Positions 416 to 25,556 of a stretch of DNA of 25,556 nt are shown here, piece by piece; the stretch's first letter is position 1; each line of letters starts with the position of its first letter. The DNA comes from a virus, in the IMG/VR virus record IMGVR_UViG_3300022723_000073, positions 1 through 25,556 of that record. The stretch is one strand, 5' to 3'. A program made the translations under genes and the position numbers. Below the pieces are notes generated by a model. It did not search any database. It saw only the letters and a list, made by a program, of their open reading frames with translations, and was not told where the DNA came from.

Positions 416-1945
416 ATGGTCGCGACCCCCGAAGCCCTCGAGGCGCTCCGCGGGATCCGGGACCGAGCTCGAGAGCTCCGTCGGCACTGGAACGAGCGCC
501 GACTGCTCTCGGTGGAGTGGTTGCCGCACCAGCTCGAGCTCCTCGAGGACCCGAGCCTCTACAGGCTCCTCCGGACGGGAAACCAGCTCGGGAAGACCGA
601 GGTCGGGCTCGCCGAGGTCCTCTACGCGGCTCGAGGCGAGCACCCCTACCGCAAGCCGACCCGGGAGGCCGGCGAGTACTGGGTCGTTTGCGCCTCGTGG
701 GGTCAGTCGCTCGCGATCCAGCGCAAGCTCTACGCGCTGTGCCCTCGCGACTGGTTGAGGCCGGGGACGGCGTTCTCGCGGGAGCGGGCGTTCGGTGGGC
801 GCTACCCGAGCGTCTCGATCCGGCACGCGTCGAGCACGCCTGGTGACGAGCGGTGGTCGGTCGTCCGGTTCAAGACCACCGGCCAGGAGACCCTCGATCT
901 CTCGGCCGACACGATCGACGGTGCGCTGTTCGACGAGCCCCCGCGGAGCGAGACCGTCTACAGCGAGGTCCAGAAGCGGGTCCAGGCGAACAACGGCTGG
1001 ATCCTGCTCACGCTCACGCCGATCGGGGCGGACGTCTCGTGGCTCCGCGACCTCGTCCGCAGTGGCGAGATCCGCGAGCACCACGCGCGCCTCGAGGCGG
1101 AGCTCCTAGTGCCGGTGGGCCGCACCGAGCCGCTCCGGATCCGAGACAAGGGGGGCCACCTCCACCGGTGGGATCAGGCCTGGATCGACGTGGTTGTCCG
1201 CCGGACCCCCGAGAGCGAGCGCGAGATCCGGATCGACGGCGAGTGGGACATCCGGCCCGTAGACGCCTACTTTGGGGGCGTGTGGGTTGACTCGAGGGAC
1301 ACGATCACGCTCGATGACCTGGAGGCCGAGCGCGAGGGATGGGACCCGGAGCTCGACGGCGTGATCGCCTGCCTCGGGATCGACCACGGCCACCGGCCCG
1401 GGAAGCAGTACGCGTGCCTGCTCGAGGTCGACGACCGGGACCCCGCCCGGCCCTCGATCGACCTGGTCGACGAGTACACCGATGCCCTCGGCCTGGCCGA
1501 TCCCCGCCGGGACGCTCGAGGGATCCTCGAGATGCTCGAGCGTGCCGGGTGGCAGTGGCGCGATCTGGCGTTCGCCGGTGGCGACAGGGACCACATGCCG
1601 GGGACCGAGCACCGCAAAAGCAACCGGGACCTGGAGCTCGCGATCCGGGCCGAGCTTGGCCTCCACGACCTCCCGCTGCACCCGCGGATCCGGACCGTGA
1701 AGCGAGGGGCCGGCCGCGGCAAGGGGTCCGTCGTGCTCGGGTGCAAGTTCCTGTGGCGAGCGATGGCCGATCGGAGGTTCCGGGTCTCGAAGCACTGCGT
1801 CAAGGCGAGGGGCGCGGTTCGACGGTTCCGGCTCCGGACCGTCGACGACGAATGGAAGGACGTTGTTGACGGGATCCGCTACGGGCTCGATCCGTTCGTG
1901 TTCTACCGAGCGGGCTCGAGTGCGGTGTCCGTCCGGTTCGGCTGA
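416..1945 (+). CDS. terL: Terminase large subunit (packaging ATPase and nuclease)
   Basis: This 509-aa protein is the expected length for TerL, the motor that cuts concatemers and pumps DNA into the procapsid. The ATPase half has a Walker A loop at residues 53-61 (RTGNQLGKT) and a Walker B ending at D173-E174 (ALFDE), followed by the coupling-type segment LLTLTPIG near 197-204. The nuclease half begins around residue 318. It has an RNase H-like first strand with D323 (LGIDHGH), acidic residues in GGDRD near 388-392, and C-terminal acidic residues in KDVVDGIRYGLD (481-492). The linker between the halves, about residues 287-308, is encoded by a 65-bp stretch that recurs exactly at 21802-21866. 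The start is ATG just after the preceding stop. A TGA stop at 1943-1945 forms part of the next promoter-like motif. Confidence 0.95.
   Translation: MVATPEALEALRGIRDRARELRRHWNERRLLSVEWLPHQLELLEDPSLYRLLRTGNQLGKTEVGLAEVLYAARGEHPYRKPTREAGEYWVVCASWGQSLAIQRKLYALCPRDWLRPGTAFSRERAFGGRYPSVSIRHASSTPGDERWSVVRFKTTGQETLDLSADTIDGALFDEPPRSETVYSEVQKRVQANNGWILLTLTPIGADVSWLRDLVRSGEIREHHARLEAELLVPVGRTEPLRIRDKGGHLHRWDQAWIDVVVRRTPESEREIRIDGEWDIRPVDAYFGGVWVDSRDTITLDDLEAEREGWDPELDGVIACLGIDHGHRPGKQYACLLEVDDRDPARPSIDLVDEYTDALGLADPRRDARGILEMLERAGWQWRDLAFAGGDRDHMPGTEHRKSNRDLELAIRAELGLHDLPLHPRIRTVKRGAGRGKGSVVLGCKFLWRAMADRRFRVSKHCVKARGAVRRFRLRTVDDEWKDVVDGIRYGLDPFVFYRAGSSAVSVRFG
1274..1338 (+). repeat. 65-bp exact direct repeat, copy 1 (inside terL)
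   Basis: Bases 1274-1338 are identical to 21802-21866 on the same strand. The flanking bases differ on both sides (T against C before, A against T after). In terL the segment encodes the linker peptide GGVWVDSRDTITLDDLEAER plus EG. The second copy lies in a small right-arm ORF in the same reading frame. Confidence 0.97.
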
Positions 1946-3459: not shown

Positions 3460-4098
3460 ATGGACGACGACGACCTCGAGAAGGTCCCGAAGCAGCGGCT
3501 CTCGGAGGTCCTCGAGAAGCTGCGCGTCGCGAACGCTCGTGTCGGCGAGCTCGAGCGTGAGGTCCGGACCCAGACCGAGCGCGCGAACAAGGCCGAGGAG
3601 ACCGGTCGCTCGGCGAGCCAGCTCGCCGACCGGGTCGCCGAGCTCGAGAGCGACCTGAAGGCCGAGCGAGCCGCGCGCTCCGAGGATTCGGCGATCACGC
3701 GCGCCGGGTTCACCGATCCGGAGCTCGTCCGCTTCGAGTACGGCCGCGTGAGCCGCGATCTCGGGGAGGATGCGCCCCCGCTCTCCGAGTGGCTCGAGGG
3801 GGTCAAGGGTGACACGGCGAAGGCGCCCCCGGCTCTCCGGGCCGCGCTCGAGGCCGCGGGTGGTACAGCCGACCAGGGCGACGGCGACGGCGACGGCGAG
3901 ACGATGCGCAAGGGGACCACCGGCCGCGGGGGCGACGCCGAGGACGGCCAGGGGTCCGGCGGGACCTCGAGGGGCCGGAACGCGCGACTGAAGGAGATCA
4001 ACGCGAAGCACCGCGTCGGTTCCGCCGAGTGGGCCGAGGAGGCCGCCGGGGTGCTCGGGGACGAGCACCCCGCGGTGAAGCGAGCGCGCGCCGGTTGA
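3460..4098 (+). CDS. Putative capsid scaffolding protein
   Basis: This 212-aa, highly acidic and charged protein lies between portal and major capsid genes. Residues 1 to about 75 form a coiled-coil-like heptad region (LSEVLEKLRVANARVGELER and onward). The middle, around 140-180, is a Gly/Asp/Thr-rich flexible stretch including DGDGDGDG. The C-terminus is short and basic-helical (GRNARLKEIN...AVKRARAG). This layout of acidic coiled coil, flexible linker and basic helical tail is typical of phage scaffolds, which guide capsid assembly and then leave or are degraded. I see no serine-protease motif, so it does not look like a protease-scaffold fusion. The stop overlaps the -35 element of the capsid promoter. 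Confidence 0.7.
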   Translation: MDDDDLEKVPKQRLSEVLEKLRVANARVGELEREVRTQTERANKAEETGRSASQLADRVAELESDLKAERAARSEDSAITRAGFTDPELVRFEYGRVSRDLGEDAPPLSEWLEGVKGDTAKAPPALRAALEAAGGTADQGDGDGDGETMRKGTTGRGGDAEDGQGSGGTSRGRNARLKEINAKHRVGSAEWAEEAAGVLGDEHPAVKRARAG

Positions 4099-5320: not shown

Positions 5321-6127
5321 ATGACGACCCGTCGCAAGCCGACCCGCAAGGGCTCGAGCTCGAAGACCGCGCCCACCGAGGCCGCGGCTCCCCCGGCGCC
5401 CCCGCCGAGCCGTCGCCAGCGCCGAGCGCGGCAAGCGGCCGTCCCCCTCGGGGTCGAGATGCCCCAGGTCGGGGTCTCGCGCCAGGCCGAGCCGACCACC
5501 CGAGCGGCCCCTCAGCCGGCCTACTACCTCGTGTTCAACCGCGACCGGTGGGACTTCATCGGGGGGCGGGTGGTCCCTCAGCTCTCGAAGGCGAAGATCC
5601 TCCCCGGCGCGAACGGGGTCGGGGTCGACCGTTCGGGAAAGCCTCTCCCGGGCATGATGCTCGCGCAGATCGAGGAGAACGGTCACCAGGTGATCCCGTG
5701 GGACGTCGACGGACCGGGCACGTCCTACCTTCGTCGCGACCCGGCGACGGGGGGCTGGTATTCCCGGTGGGAGCGCGTGTTCCCGGGCTCGAGCGCGGTG
5801 CACAGTGACACCGAGGGCTACGCCGAGTGGCTCGAGGGCCTGATCGATCGCGGGGTCCTCGAGCCGGCCCCGATCTACGTGCTCGAGCGGCTCCTCGGTC
5901 GCTACCAGGGCCTCGCCGCGGAGACGTCGAACAAGCCGGCTCGCGCGAACGATCACGCCGGGTACCTGCAGGCGATCGAGGTGATCGGCTTCGAGCTCGA
6001 GGCCGCTCGAGCGGAGGAGGAGGTCCCCGAGCTCGAGCTCCAGGCCGAGGAGACCCCCGAGCTCGAGGCCGGGACCCCCGACCTCGGCACCGGCGAGCCC
6101 ACGACCGCGCCCCCGTCGGAGGGGTGA
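5321..6127 (+). CDS. Head-associated protein of unknown function
   Basis: I do not recognise this 268-aa protein. Residues 1-65 are disordered, basic and Pro/Ala-rich (TTRRKPTRKGSSSKT and onward). Residues 67-215 look folded, with aromatic and beta-rich motifs (YYLVFNRDRWDFIGGRVVP, GWYSRWERVFPG) and a helical segment around EWLEGLIDRGVLEP and YVLERLLGRY. The last 45 residues are an acidic Glu/Pro tail. Its place directly after the capsid gene suggests a decoration, head-completion or internal head protein. The disordered N-terminal part includes an 89-bp stretch (5369-5457) that is repeated exactly at 25185-25273, where another frame is translated. The ATG follows a GGAG 7 bases upstream. Confidence 0.75.
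   Translation: MTTRRKPTRKGSSSKTAPTEAAAPPAPPPSRRQRRARQAAVPLGVEMPQVGVSRQAEPTTRAAPQPAYYLVFNRDRWDFIGGRVVPQLSKAKILPGANGVGVDRSGKPLPGMMLAQIEENGHQVIPWDVDGPGTSYLRRDPATGGWYSRWERVFPGSSAVHSDTEGYAEWLEGLIDRGVLEPAPIYVLERLLGRYQGLAAETSNKPARANDHAGYLQAIEVIGFELEAARAEEEVPELELQAEETPELEAGTPDLGTGEPTTAPPSEG
5369..5457 (+). repeat. 89-bp exact direct repeat, copy 1
   Basis: Bases 5369-5457 are identical to 25185-25273 on the same strand, and the flanks diverge immediately. Here it encodes the peptide running from TEAAAPPAPPPSRRQ to VPLGV in the disordered N-terminus of the head-associated protein. Confidence 0.97.
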
Positions 6128-20450: not shown

Positions 20451-20693
20451 ATGTCCATGATGACTGTGACCTTTATGCCCGCCTACCTGCGGGCGTCGCA
20501 CGAGGCAGCCGGCGGCAATGCCGGCTGCTACCCCCATAATGGGGCCATCCGATGCCTCATGGAGTCGGACGACGCCGAGGTGCTCATCGAGCACCTCGGC
20601 GACTGGGCCGAGGTGCGTCCCGCGAGCCGCCTCGAGCTCACGCGGCTCGAGGTCCGCAGCTTCGAGGGCCTGGCCGCCAGCGGCCTCCTCTAG
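20451..20693 (+). CDS. Small protein of unknown function, first gene of the right-arm operon
   Basis: This 80-aa protein starts MSMMTVTFMPAYLRASHEAA. I chose the ATG at 20451, preceded by GAGGAGG, because the upstream in-frame ATG at 20418 overlaps the -10 box. Residues 8-35 are small-residue-rich with a Cys (NAGCYPHNGAIRCLME). The C-terminal half forms a charged alpha/beta unit (DDAEVLIEHLGDWAEVRPA, LELTRLEVRSFEGLAAS). I do not recognise the family. Its DNA contains three successive dyads (20477-20544). It is under the strong promoter with operators and is probably expressed early. Confidence 0.68.
   Translation: MSMMTVTFMPAYLRASHEAAGGNAGCYPHNGAIRCLMESDDAEVLIEHLGDWAEVRPASRLELTRLEVRSFEGLAASGLL
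20477..20544 (+). repeat. Three consecutive dyad symmetries inside a coding region
   Basis: GCCCGC/GCGGGC (20477-20494, 6-base loop) is followed by GCAGCCGGC/GCCGGCTGC (20505-20528, 6-base loop). The third is CCCCAT-A-ATGGGG (20532-20544). All three are perfect. They lie in the first third of the 80-aa gene, about 26-94 bases after its start. Confidence 0.8.
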
Positions 20694-20722
20694 ACCCCCC
20701 CCCTCCGAGACCTGGCCCACAC

Positions 20723-20739
20723 GCCCCCCGATGGGGGGC
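20723..20739 (+). promoter_or_regulatory. GC-only hairpin before the pentapeptide gene
   Basis: GCCCCCC (20723-20729) pairs with GGGGGGC (20733-20739) around a 3-base loop. It lies 29 bases after the previous stop and 12 bases before the next ATG. There is no T-run. It may be an attenuator or a translation-control element. Confidence 0.5.
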
Positions 20740-20751
20740 ACGGAGAAAGGC

Positions 20752-21357
<606 letters not shown>

Positions 21358-21363
21358 CCCCCC

Positions 21364-21383
21364 GCCGGGCGAGGCTGCCCGGC
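21364..21383 (+). promoter_or_regulatory. GC-only hairpin before a very short ORF
   Basis: GCCGGGC (21364-21370) pairs with GCCCGGC (21377-21383) around a 6-base loop, 12 bases before the ATG at 21396. The distance to the start codon and the sequence after the hairpin (AGAAGGAGAGGC) closely match the arrangement before the pentapeptide gene. Confidence 0.5.
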
Positions 21384-21395
21384 AGAAGGAGAGGC

Positions 21396-21470
21396 ATGGA
21401 CAAGGTCGGCGCCGACCTGCACGGCGCCGACTTTTGCGGCCCAGGACCAGTCTCGCGCAGGTTGGCGTAG
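21396..21470 (+). CDS. 24-aa pentapeptide-like mini ORF
   Basis: This ORF encodes MDKVGADLHGADFCGPGPVS plus four residues. The first 15 residues contain two pentapeptide units (VGADL, HGADF). It has a strong ribosome binding site (AGGAGAGG) and the same hairpin-plus-site leader as the full pentapeptide gene just upstream. It could be a degenerate remnant of a duplicated pentapeptide gene, a leader peptide for the next gene, or a real micro-protein. The length gives no statistical support on its own. Confidence 0.35.
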   Translation: MDKVGADLHGADFCGPGPVSRRLA

Positions 21471-21478
21471 AGGTGCGC

Positions 21479-21694
21479 ATGCGACCCGAACCCCGCCCCC
21501 GCGGCCGCCAGCGCCGCTGTACCAACTGCGGCCGCCAGGTCGAGCTCCTCGGGGGCCGCTGGTTGATCTGCGACTCCATCGAGATCCGCGCGGTCGTCGA
21601 CGCCGGCGGCGCGGACGACCGCTGGACCGGGATCGCCCACGATGCCACCAGGTGCTCGGGGCTCCGGATCAGCGGACCCGCTGTTCAGGGCTGA
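21479..21694 (+). CDS. Small zinc-finger-like protein
   Basis: This 71-aa protein has a basic N-terminus (MRPEPRPRGRQRR) followed by CTNCGRQ and later single cysteines in LICDS and TRCSG with a His in between (IAHDATRC). That could form a treble-clef or ribbon-like zinc site, although the spacing does not match a family I can name. The ATG at 21479 has AGAGG upstream. Its stop overlaps the next ATG as TGATG, so translation of the chimeric ORF that follows would be coupled. Confidence 0.55.
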   Translation: MRPEPRPRGRQRRCTNCGRQVELLGGRWLICDSIEIRAVVDAGGADDRWTGIAHDATRCSGLRISGPAVQG

Positions 21695-21933
21695 TGCCCT
21701 CCCCGTCGGCCCCTCTGGGTCGGCGGGGGTATCGCGTCGCCGAGCTCGAGCTGGGCGGCCGTGTGCCTCCCCTGGCAGCTCGCCGAGCTCGGCACCCTTT
21801 CGGGGGCGTGTGGGTTGACTCGAGGGACACGATCACGCTCGATGACCTGGAGGCCGAGCGCGAGGGTGGTTCGGTCGGCTGGACCTCGACCTGGGGGCGG
21901 AGAGGCCCCCGCAGCGCCCGGAGCCCACGATGA
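21694..21933 (+). CDS. 79-aa ORF containing a copied terminase linker
   Basis: This ORF begins at an ATG overlapping the previous stop (TGATG) and ends at a TGA overlapping the next start (ATGA), the coupling style used throughout this genome. That supports real translation. Residues 37-58 are identical to the TerL linker between its ATPase and nuclease domains, because the DNA is an exact 65-bp copy in the same frame. The parts before (PLGRRGYRVAELELGGRVPP) and after (GSVGWTSTWGRRGPRS) resemble nothing I know and are Arg-rich, as frame-shadow sequence would be. It may be a chimera, a decaying gene, or a functional TerL-interacting peptide. Confidence 0.45.
   Translation: MPSPSAPLGRRGYRVAELELGGRVPPLAARRARHPFGGVWVDSRDTITLDDLEAEREGGSVGWTSTWGRRGPRSARSPR
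21802..21866 (+). repeat. 65-bp exact direct repeat, copy 2
   Basis: Identical to 1274-1338 inside terL and in the same orientation, 20,528 bases away. It shares the terL reading frame within the 79-aa ORF. There are no shared bases beyond the ends apart from a few by chance. Confidence 0.97.
21893..21910 (+). promoter_or_regulatory. GC-only hairpin before the HTH gene
   Basis: GGGGGC (21893-21898) pairs with GCCCCC (21905-21910) around a 6-base loop, ending 19 bases before the ATG at 21930. It lies within the end of the 79-aa ORF. It is the third such hairpin in 1.2 kb. Confidence 0.42.
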
Positions 21934-22226
21934 AGCAGTTCTTGACCGACACCGAAGCGCGACACGTCTACGCGACGCTCCTCGAGCTCGCCGGCCTGGA
22001 GGACGGCCGCGGCGCTCAGCAACGGCTCTCGGAGGTCCTCGAGATCACGCCTACCCGGGTGATGCAGATCCGCCGCGGCTACGTGACCCCCGACGCCGTC
22101 GCCGCGCTGCTCGCCAGGCTGGGGGACGGCGAGCTCGAAGACGAGCTCCGCAAGATCGACCGCGCGAAGTACCGGGCGCTCCGCGAGCGCGTGGGTGTGC
22201 TCCACACGTCGGATCGAGACCGCTGA
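21930..22226 (+). CDS. Cro/XRE-type helix-turn-helix regulator
   Basis: This 98-aa protein contains a helix-turn-helix at about residues 29-60. AQQRLSEVLEITPTRVMQIR is followed by RGYVTPDAVAALLARL, which matches the usual pattern of a positioning helix, turn, recognition helix and a closing helix. The N-terminal TDTEARHVYATLLELAG and the C-terminal charged helix could support dimerisation. It is likely to bind the operators near 20375-20414 or the palindrome at 22305-22329, which lies just after its own terminator. The ATG overlaps the preceding stop as ATGA. There is no ligand or protease domain, so it is a Cro-like small repressor rather than a CI-type one. Confidence 0.72.
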   Translation: MKQFLTDTEARHVYATLLELAGLEDGRGAQQRLSEVLEITPTRVMQIRRGYVTPDAVAALLARLGDGELEDELRKIDRAKYRALRERVGVLHTSDRDR

Positions 22227-22246
22227 ACGACCCCCGGAGGACAACG

Positions 22247-22293
22247 AGGCCCCGTGATCTTCCCTCGAGGGGTTGCGGGGCCTTCGTGTGTTT
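22247..22293 (+). terminator. Intrinsic terminator after the HTH gene
   Basis: AGGCCCCG (22247-22254) pairs with CGGGGCCT (22276-22283). The interior contains a smaller CCCTCGAGGG dyad. The stem is followed by TCGTGTGTTT, the most T-rich stretch near any hairpin here. It closes the operon that begins at 20391. Confidence 0.65.
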
Positions 22294-22301
22294 GGTAGAC
22301 A
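22273..22301 (+). promoter_or_regulatory. Promoter candidate for the replication-accessory operon
   Basis: TTGCGG (22273-22278), a 17-base spacer and TAGACA (22296-22301) could drive the SSB-like gene at 22349. The -35 element overlaps the terminator's right arm. A second pairing, TTGAAT (22316-22321) with GACAAT (22340-22345), would start inside the gene and is less likely. Confidence 0.38.
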
Positions 22302-22304
22302 ATG

Positions 22305-22329
22305 TGGGCCGTGCATTGAATGCGGCCCA
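22305..22329 (+). promoter_or_regulatory. 25-bp palindromic operator candidate
   Basis: TGGGCCG (22305-22311) and CGGCCCA (22323-22329) form the outer arms. The centre contains CATT-G-AATG (22314-22322). It lies just after the -10 candidate, covering the expected start of transcription. CATTGAAT occurs again at 22329-22336. This is a likely site for a dimeric regulator. Confidence 0.5.
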
Positions 22330-22348
22330 TTGAATCGGAGACAATCAC

Positions 22349-22867
22349 GTGAGCGACTATCCAAGCGACGACGACGTCCTCCTCGGCGGAGGAGGGCCCC
22401 CCACGTTCAGGTTCGAGACGCTGAACGACGGCGTCCTCGGGACGATCCTGCACTACAAGGTCGAGCAGGCGACGGACATCGACGGCAACCTGCAGACGTG
22501 GGACGACGGCCGGCCTCGGATGCAGGCCGTGGTCACCCTGCAGACCGAGCTCCGGGACCGGGCCATCGACGACGACGACGGCCAGCGCCGCGTGTTCGTC
22601 AAGGGCCGGATGCTGCAGGGGCTCCAGCGGGCGCTCCGCGACGCCGGCCTGACCCGGGCGAAGGACTGCATCGGCGGCATGCTCCGGATCGTCTGGACCG
22701 GCGAGGGCAAGGCGCCGCGCCGCGGCTACTCGCGCCCGAAGCTCTACGACGTGCAGTTCCAGCCGGCCGCCGAGCCGGTCGGCGGCCGCGACACCCGCCC
22801 GGCTCCCTCGACCACCCCGGACCCGACCCCCGACTACAGCGGAGCCGACGATGACATCCCCTTCTAA
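22349..22867 (+). CDS. Single-stranded DNA-binding protein (phage type)
   Basis: This 172-aa protein ends in DYSGADDDIPF. The acidic tail with terminal Ile-Pro-Phe is the hallmark by which SSBs recruit partner proteins. The body (residues 20-140) has OB-fold-like strands (FRFETLNDGVLGTILHYKV, RPRMQAVVTLQTELR, RVFVKGRMLQGLQRALRDAG, GGMLRIVWTGEG) and resembles SSB-like proteins common in phages of high-GC hosts. A disordered Pro/Thr stretch at 145-162 links body and tail. It protects single strands during replication or recombination. The GTG start at 22349 has CGGAGA 8 bases upstream. Its last 17 bases overlap the next small gene. Confidence 0.82.
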   Translation: MSDYPSDDDVLLGGGGPPTFRFETLNDGVLGTILHYKVEQATDIDGNLQTWDDGRPRMQAVVTLQTELRDRAIDDDDGQRRVFVKGRMLQGLQRALRDAGLTRAKDCIGGMLRIVWTGEGKAPRRGYSRPKLYDVQFQPAAEPVGGRDTRPAPSTTPDPTPDYSGADDDIPF

Positions 22868-23036
22868 GGGAGAGCGCGTAGCCGGCGTCCCTCTCTCTGT
22901 GCCTGGGAGGCTGTTCGACGACCACCTCGAGACCCTCGTGATGCGAGCCCAGCGCGTGCTCGAGTGCGTCGAGCAGGGGGACCACGAGGGCGCGGCCACC
23001 ATGCGCGCGACCTGCGAGCCCACTTCGAGGAGGTGA
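22851..23036 (+). CDS. Small protein of unknown function
   Basis: This 61-aa ORF overlaps the end of the SSB-like gene by 17 bases and ends 3 bases before the exonuclease start. The N-terminal 20 residues look unstructured. The remainder is helical (RLFDDHLETLVMRAQRVLEC, VEQGDHEGAATMRATCE). The overlap and tight fit between two well-supported genes favour real translation. No function can be assigned. Confidence 0.55.
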   Translation: MTSPSKGERVAGVPLSVPGRLFDDHLETLVMRAQRVLECVEQGDHEGAATMRATCEPTSRR

Positions 23037-23039
23037 TCC

Positions 23040-24137
23040 GTGGCGCTGCCTGATCCGTGCGACGTCTACCTGGACATCGAGACCCGGCGCTCCCCTCGAG
23101 GGGCTCCAGACTTCGTCAGGGGCTACCCGCCCCCGCTCCCGTTCTTCGAGCTCTGGCAGGACGACGACCCGCCCAAGGTCCGGACCCCTGACGAGGTCAA
23201 GGCCGGCAACCGCAAGGGCGAGACCCGAGAGAAGTACATCGCCGAGCAGGTCGCGAAGGACGAGGCCGCCCTGGCGGCGTGGCGCCTCGAGAGCAACAGG
23301 CGCTACAACGCGCTCCAGGAGGAGCGGGCCCGCAAGGTCGCCGAGCTCGACGAGGCAACGTCGATGGACGCCTTTCAGGGTGGCGAGGTCGGGATGATCG
23401 GCCTGATCCTCGGCGAGGGCGGGAACGCCAAGCTGATCCACCCCCACAACGACCCGGAACTCCCGGACGACCGGCGGATCGCCTACCTCGCGCCGCCGGT
23501 CGACAGCATCACGAAGCGGCTCGAACTCCACCGGCTCGCCGAGTTCCGGAACCTGCAACGCCTCTCCCAGGGGTTGCAGCGCGCGGCCTGGGCCGGCCGG
23601 GACCGCGAGCAGGGCCAGCGAGCCCGGGAGCTCCGGATCCACGCCTGGGGCGGGTGGGACTTCGACTTCCAGTTCATCGCGGTTCGAGCGGCGCTGCTGG
23701 CTCGCTTCGAGAACGCCTACGCGAACCCCCACGACGAGACGCCGCACCTCGACCGCGACCTGGTGTGGCTCGCTTCGAGATTCTGGCACACGGTGCCCTG
23801 GAAAAGCCCAGGGCTCTACGATCCCCGCGACGTGTGGAGCTTCGGCAAGCGCTCGAGGTTCGCTCGAGGCCGACTCGTCCACGTCGCCGAGTTCTTCGGC
23901 GACGAGGTCCCGGCCTGGTACCGAGCGTTCCACCACCGCCGGATCCCCGAGCTGCTCGAGTCGCCTGGCCACCCCTACGCCGGGAGCGACCAGCCGGAGA
24001 TCACGGCGTGGGCGCAGCCTCCCGAGCGCCTCTCGAACCTCGACGTGACCGGCCACGTGTGCCGCCTCGACGTCGAGTGCCTCCGGTACGTCCACGGCGT
24101 GTTCATGGAGACCGGCGTCTGGACGGCGTCGTCGTGA
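23040..24137 (+). CDS. DnaQ-like 3'-5' exonuclease (DEDDh type)
   Basis: This 365-aa protein begins with the exonuclease motif I, D12-x-E14 in VYLDIET. Motif II is GWDFDF at 205-210, with D209 (or D207) as the likely metal ligand. Motif III is H339-x4-D344 in HVCRLDVE, which places it in the DEDDh class. Between motifs I and II, residues 47-105 form a charged coiled-coil-like insertion (VKAGNRKGETREKYIAEQ, AWRLESNRRYNALQEERARK) and then TSMDAFQGGEVGMIGLILGE. That insertion is common in the phage members of this family. It may trim DNA ends during recombination or act with a host polymerase, since no phage polymerase is seen. The GTG at 23040 has GAGGAGG upstream. Confidence 0.8.
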   Translation: MALPDPCDVYLDIETRRSPRGAPDFVRGYPPPLPFFELWQDDDPPKVRTPDEVKAGNRKGETREKYIAEQVAKDEAALAAWRLESNRRYNALQEERARKVAELDEATSMDAFQGGEVGMIGLILGEGGNAKLIHPHNDPELPDDRRIAYLAPPVDSITKRLELHRLAEFRNLQRLSQGLQRAAWAGRDREQGQRARELRIHAWGGWDFDFQFIAVRAALLARFENAYANPHDETPHLDRDLVWLASRFWHTVPWKSPGLYDPRDVWSFGKRSRFARGRLVHVAEFFGDEVPAWYRAFHHRRIPELLESPGHPYAGSDQPEITAWAQPPERLSNLDVTGHVCRLDVECLRYVHGVFMETGVWTASS

Positions 24138-24608: not shown

Positions 24609-24931
24609 CCGAGGCCCTGAAGCAGATCAAGCCGTGCGGGCGCTGCGGGAAGCCGATGCACGCCGATCCCACGTTCTACGGCCGGGTGTGCTCGGTCTGC
24701 TACGACGTCGAGAAGAACGGCGAGCGCGCGCGCTCCTGGGGTCGGATCCGCGAGGTCGTGGTCTTCCAGGACGCCCTGATGGAGCTCGCGCTCGCCTCGC
24801 CGACCCTGCTCGAGCGAGCAGCTCGAGCACTGCGGGAGCGCGCCGAGCTCGAGAGCAACGCCGAGCGGTCGTGTGCGTTCCGCGAGGCGGCCGAGCAGCT
24901 CGGCGAGCTCGTCGCCGAGGTGATGGCATGA
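24605..24931 (+). CDS. Small zinc-finger protein with helical C-terminus
   Basis: This 108-aa protein starts VTEALKQIKPCGRCGKPMHA. A CGRC pair near residues 11-14 and a CSVC pair near 30-33 form a likely zinc ribbon or treble clef. The rest is helical and charged (REVVVFQDALMELALASPTL, LERAARALRERAELESNAER). A single further Cys lies in RSCAFRE. Such proteins occur in phage early regions as DNA- or RNA polymerase-binding factors, but no specific family is recognised. The GTG start is coupled to the HTH gene, and its end overlaps the next ATG as ATGA. Confidence 0.68.
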   Translation: MTEALKQIKPCGRCGKPMHADPTFYGRVCSVCYDVEKNGERARSWGRIREVVVFQDALMELALASPTLLERAARALRERAELESNAERSCAFREAAEQLGELVAEVMA

Positions 24932-25556
24932 ACGGCGCGGAGCTTCAGCAAGCGTACGACTGGCTCCGCGCGTGGCCGGTCGACGCGACGATCGCGGACA
25001 TCGCCGAGGGCCTGAACTGGGAGCCGGCTCGAGCTCGGGAGGCCGCGCTCGAGCTGCAGCGGCGCAAGCTGGCCGTGCTCGGGAAGCGGGGGATCCGCGC
25101 CGCCGAGCCGACCGCGGCCGAGGACCCGACCGCCGAGGGGATCGACCCGGAGGCCGCCGCGCCGCCCCCGGCCGACCCCGACGAGCGCCCACCGAGGCCG
25201 CGGCTCCCCCGGCGCCCCCGCCGAGCCGTCGCCAGCGCCGAGCGCGGCAAGCGGCCGTCCCCCTCGGGGTCGACCCACGCCGATCCTCCTCCGGTCCTCG
25301 ACCGAATTGTCCTCGAGGCGCTCGAGCCCGGGGAGATCCGGCAGGGTGAGCGGGCCGGGACCGTCTACGCGCTCGAGGGGACGCCCCCCGACGCTCCCGC
25401 GGTTCGTCAGTCGCCCAAGGTCACCCGGGCGCCGCACGGGGCGCCTCACGCGGAAGCACGGCCAGATCCGGCGCCGCTCCCGAAGCCCGATCCGGAAGCA
25501 CGGCCAGATCCGGCGCCGCTCCCGAAGCCCGATCCGGAAGCACGGCCAGATCCGGC
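24928..25556 (+). CDS. Winged-helix-like protein with proline-rich repeats (runs off the window)
   Basis: The frame is open from the ATG at 24928 to the window end (209 complete codons). Residues 1-50 look like a winged helix: AYDWLRAWPVDATIADIAEG, then ARAREAALELQRRKLAVLGK. Residues 55-120 are disordered and Pro/Arg-rich, and part of this is encoded by the 89-bp repeat read in a different frame from its other copy. A second small folded part may lie at 124-155 (VLDRIVLEALEPGEIRQGER, TVYALEG). The last visible part is a tandem 14-residue repeat, EARPDPAPLPKPDP. DNA-binding is likely; a replication-initiation or regulatory role is a guess, favoured because no other initiator is visible. It may continue across the window join to base 58. 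Confidence 0.65.
   Translation, partial: MNGAELQQAYDWLRAWPVDATIADIAEGLNWEPARAREAALELQRRKLAVLGKRGIRAAEPTAAEDPTAEGIDPEAAAPPPADPDERPPRPRLPRRPRRAVASAERGKRPSPSGSTHADPPPVLDRIVLEALEPGEIRQGERAGTVYALEGTPPDAPAVRQSPKVTRAPHGAPHAEARPDPAPLPKPDPEARPDPAPLPKPDPEARPDP
25185..25273 (+). repeat. 89-bp exact direct repeat, copy 2
   Basis: Identical to 5369-5457, in the same orientation, 19,816 bases away. Here the translated frame is shifted, giving PPRPRLPRRPRRAVASAERG where copy 1 gives TEAAAPPAPPPSRRQRRARQ. What is conserved is therefore the DNA and not the peptide. Confidence 0.97.
25450..25556 (+). repeat. 42-bp tandem repeat at the window end
   Basis: Unit starts at 25452 and 25494 are identical over 42 bases, and a third, partial copy begins at 25536 and reaches the window end. 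The unit is in frame and encodes 14 residues. The true copy number may be larger, because arrays at a contig edge are often collapsed or cut. Confidence 0.88.

Follow-up and report, generated by a model that had tools for sequence, protein, structure and literature searches.

A 2016 study, cited in PMC7192050, reportedly described short-patch double illegitimate recombination in bacteria capable of natural transformation, the patch being flanked by microhomology on either side. As at the locus presented here, short intragenomic segments end up at an unrelated site, where they leave a small heterologous patch. The present case differs from that system in its phage genome, its rather long patches and its weak microhomology. 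Diversity-generating retroelements also copy a short template into a distant target, but the copying seen here is without mutagenesis and reaches the wrong kind of target, and no reverse transcriptase was found among the ORFs scanned. Short-patch illegitimate recombination is named in PMC7192050; PMC8421209 treats microhomology-mediated break-induced replication as a source of templated insertions. In that process, copies of a distant locus are inserted at a junction by polymerase template switching, which resembles the arrangement found here; it was studied there in eukaryotic cells, and a break and a polymerase would have to be presumed here.

The window (the whole stretch of DNA analysed, an IMG/VR virus contig of 25,556 nt) contains a 65-nt stretch that is best read, with a probability of about 70%, as an ectopic copy, recent and without function, of the virus's own terminase gene, pasted between a gene ending at 21694 and a gene starting at 21930.

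The 65-nt repeat and its donor gene

Positions 21802-21866 are identical to positions 1274-1338 over 65 of 65 nt, or over 67 of 68 if the preceding TTC/TTT codon is counted. The initial annotation had reported this exact copy of the terminase gene about 20 kb away, and its report is borne out. Indeed, the repeat is not a product of chance, since the longest exact repeats in Markov shuffles of the window reach only 15-18 nt (order 2) and 16-21 nt (order 5). The source gene had been named correctly as well: the ORF at 416-1945 encodes a terminase large subunit, TerL (phrog_2, E=6e-10), which is 35-57% identical to its relatives. The copied part had been assigned to the linker between the ATPase and nuclease domains, which is reasonable, as it lies between GEWDIRPVDAYF and LGIDHG; by motif reading, the former would be the end of the ATPase and the latter would hold the first nuclease aspartate.

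1274-1338, plus strand: 65-nt repeat, donor (native) copy within the TerL gene (416-1945), in the ATPase/nuclease interval; identity, gapless alignment with the closest relative, coding score of 0.70 in the TerL frame
21802-21866, plus strand: 65-nt repeat, derived copy, intergenic; identity, flanks unlike TerL and non-coding in the frame of the 79-aa ORF

The closest relative, a 31.7 kb contig (L005) whose terminase, portal and major capsid proteins are 57%, 62% and 73% identical to those of the window, was found via the portal alignment; TerL alone and the exonuclease-like gene alone, used as queries, gave no viral relatives. Its TerL sequence RPVDAYYASVWREGIHVRTYQQIEIARDG aligns gap-free with RPVDAYFGGVWVDSRDTITLDDLEAEREG of the window across the copied stretch. 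Because TerL is homologous without a gap there, the terminase copy is native and the copy at 21802 derived, a direction that this alignment makes fairly clear. The 65-nt repeat has no copy in L005, and homologues of p86, p79 and p98 were not detectable there; as this intergenic region is missing from L005, the relatives yielded no empty site. A search of related phages for the same copy had been proposed as a check, and it found none in L005 or in exact-pattern scans of IMG/VR for this repeat and the 89-nt repeat described below; the scans gave no match, hence no independent copy or empty site. A near search of phage DNA gave no match, and in a distant search using the early region, the matches listed were mainly to pentapeptide-repeat sequences.

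In the window, the early genes (single-strand-binding-like, exonuclease-like and pentapeptide; 20635-24137) run in the direction of the late genes, and in L005 (3779-7036) they lie on the opposite strand. Either the early module is inverted in the window or in L005, or else it is misassembled. The pentapeptide-repeat protein gene of the window (20934-21348) contains a 15-bp repeat array.

The recipient region

21694-21933, plus strand: 79-aa ORF holding the copy, judged to be a chance open frame and not a gene (coding scores, no homologues)
21700-21794, plus strand: two strong hairpins directly 5' of the copy, terminator-like and possibly a replication-stall site (fold z-scores)
21930-22226, plus strand: 98-aa gene (p98), weakly like a phage transcription regulator (phrog_638, E=0.04)

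The 79-aa ORF exists as first described: it reads the copy in the frame of TerL, and its ends overlap the TGA and the ATG of its neighbours. These overlaps are real; as evidence, the coupling read from them is weak, since any p98 start codon with AAG behind it necessarily gives ATGA. A codon-usage score was trained on the clear genes of the window, in which the 5th percentile of real coding windows ranges from +0.13 (21 codons) to +0.23 (36 codons). In the frame of the 79-aa ORF, this score is -0.33 bits/codon to the left of the copy and -0.31 to the right. The coding signal is confined to the copy, which scores 0.70, equal to the TerL value, because it is terminase code. A coupled protein-coding gene should carry coding signal throughout and have homologues in related phages; the signal is local, and no Pfam or PHROG match and no relative better than E=1 in phage tblastn was found, few relatives covering the region. 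Furthermore, at the 71% GC of this genome, non-coding frames lack a stop in 44% of 79-codon windows. The ORF is thus judged, on its composition and scores, to be a by-product of high G+C and not a gene; if so, an open and seemingly coupled ORF in such a genome is no evidence of a gene.

It had been suggested that the ORF encodes a peptide that mimics the TerL linker and modulates packaging. Retention of the TerL frame and the overlap with both neighbours would suit such a peptide, but the frame would be retained by chance in one case out of three, stop-free windows are as common as stated, the flanks are non-coding in the ORF's frame and no homologue was found in Pfam, PHROG or phage tblastn. 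As the exact DNA identity of the copies points to youth and not to selection at the protein level, this functional role is highly improbable.

The stretch 21694-21801 folds strongly (RNA z=-3.65; DNA z=-3.33), and its hairpins therefore mark the region as intergenic. The simplest reading is that the recipient was an intergenic terminator-like region and that the fragment was pasted at its downstream edge. In the p98 frame, the coding score is 0.58 in the gene and 0.22 over 21867-21929, so that the signal extends upstream to about 21867. A clean model of an interrupted gene was rejected: excising the 65 nt leaves the upstream open frame out of frame with the coding signal on the p98 side.

The perfect identity of the copies, and the position of the derived one between the hairpins and the next gene, would also be expected of an element acting as DNA or RNA and kept identical by selection, such as a packaging-site copy, a regulator binding site or an RNA decoy. 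Such an element is very unlikely. Indeed, (i) neither repeat has RNA structure beyond that of shuffles (z about 0), and no promoter-like site, Rfam family or tRNA was found in the repeats, (ii) the two copies share a strand, which leaves no antisense, (iii) the 65-nt and 89-nt pairs have no common sequence, and (iv) the element is absent from L005. The packaging-site copy or decoy of the initial annotation found no positive evidence.

A second dispersed repeat and the rarity of such pairs

A second exact dispersed repeat, unmentioned in the initial annotation, links 5369-5457 to 25185-25273 (89 of 89 nt).

5369-5457, plus strand: 89-nt repeat, donor copy that looks native, in the part coding for the N-terminus of a head-region protein (gene 5321-6127, located downstream of the major capsid gene)
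25185-25273, plus strand: 89-nt repeat, putative derived copy in ORF 24928-25554 (no stop before the contig ends), in a frame that differs from the donor's
25451-25556, plus strand: exact 42-bp tandem repeat, 2.5 copies, reaching the contig end

The L005 homologue of the gene at 5321-6127 aligns through its N-terminus with the 3' half of 5369-5457. From this alignment the copy at 5369 looks native, less securely than in the TerL case, the sequence being rich in Ala, Pro and Arg. In the frame of ORF 24928, the flanks score as coding (0.48 and 0.28) and the copy itself scores -0.29; with a coding score to either side of the copy, the ORF has kept its frame. Both copying events run the same way, from a late structural gene to the early region. 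A dedicated copying system, for instance a diversity-generating retroelement, would likewise move short templates to targets within one genome; it has a next to negligible probability, given the 100% identity without adenine-directed mutations, the two unrelated donors, the intergenic target and the lack of a reverse transcriptase among those proteins of the window that were compared with Pfam and PHROGs, in a contig that may be incomplete.

Besides these two repeats, no dispersed exact match in the window exceeds 22 nt. Across 118 comparison IMG/VR contigs or loci (about 1.96 Mb), a convenience sample chosen for relatedness or for a single DNA pattern and not at random, no isolated internal exact repeat of at least 50 nt with unrelated flanks was found. 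In 41 records (about 1.19 Mb), which include the closest relative and further records holding terminase or portal relatives, the long exact repeats were 127-nt repeats at the termini, a single overlapping end, a 45-nt pair and, in G012, a repeated segment with partly matching flanks; 77 further loci (0.77 Mb) contained no exact repeat over 32 nt. The window is therefore an outlier for internal exact repeats in this sample, and the pair is unusual.

This base rate makes two exact repeats in one contig odd, and it could be taken to favour an assembly or library artefact, in which sequence of the terminase and of the capsid region reached the early region through chimeric reads or a faulty join. 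The contig is metagenomic and uncultivated, it terminates in an exact tandem repeat, and chimeric reads at low coverage could have entered it. However, a path wrongly taken at a shared repeat presupposes the repeat at both places and cannot create it, and the comparison contigs show terminal 127-nt repeats but no internal ones of 65 or 89 nt. Furthermore, the frames of TerL, of the gene at 5321-6127 and of ORF 24928 each continue across their own repeat, and swapped partners would break them; as the frames continue on both sides of the repeats, the partners are supported as assembled. An artefact, although the foremost of the rival readings, is thus unlikely, and the assembly join that had been listed among the possible meanings is disfavoured against a real insertion.

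Origin of the copies

Among the readings first proposed, the recombination scar is the best supported, by the exact identity, the unrelated non-coding flanks and the native TerL copy. Exact short copies of distant segments with unrelated flanks are what is expected of templated insertions, and both copies are probably neutral. Most probably, a DNA end or a short single-stranded fragment of the late region primed or annealed at the early region while the DNA was being replicated or repaired, and 65-89 nt were copied before the return, by template switching or by short-patch illegitimate recombination. Replication may have stalled at the hairpins that directly precede the first site; at the second recipient site (25185), DNA folding revealed no special hairpin. 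Junction microhomology is weak: it amounts to 4 and 3 nt for the 65-mer, offset by one base (p about 0.02 for the 4-nt end), and, for the 89-mer, to 3 and 1 nt, so that a single junction out of four is nominally unusual.

The 154 copied bases contain no difference, which by the rule of three gives an estimated divergence since copying of at most roughly 2%; the protein differences from L005 in the best-conserved genes (27-43%) are far above this limit. Given a rare random process, it is surprising to meet two copying events within a contig of 25.5 kb. A recurrent process of the lineage could copy patches of late structural genes into the early region and so seed new intergenic or coding sequence there out of the phage's own genes, with both copies, and possibly the 3491/22018 match described below, as successive products; this is improbable. 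If the insertions are real, they would represent two very young, polarised cases in which an uncultivated phage copied patches to ectopic sites, and a possible route by which phages gain new sequence and mosaic junctions without homology.

A further match, between 3491-3517 and 22018-22044 (26 of 27 nt, with an exact 22-nt core at 3496/22023), joins a putative scaffold gene to the regulator-like gene of 98 aa, and each of them encodes QRLSEVLE in frame. It is not claimed as a third event, as its 22 nt are only slightly above the non-self maxima of 14-20 nt (18 other contigs, compared with the matches between the early and late regions of the window), and it may be due to chance. Finally, the protein encoded at 22349-22867 shares 45% identity with a conserved hypothetical protein that occurs in mycobacteriophages, for example TM4 and ZoeJ (phrog_1911, E=1e-38), a likeness that hints at an actinobacterial host.
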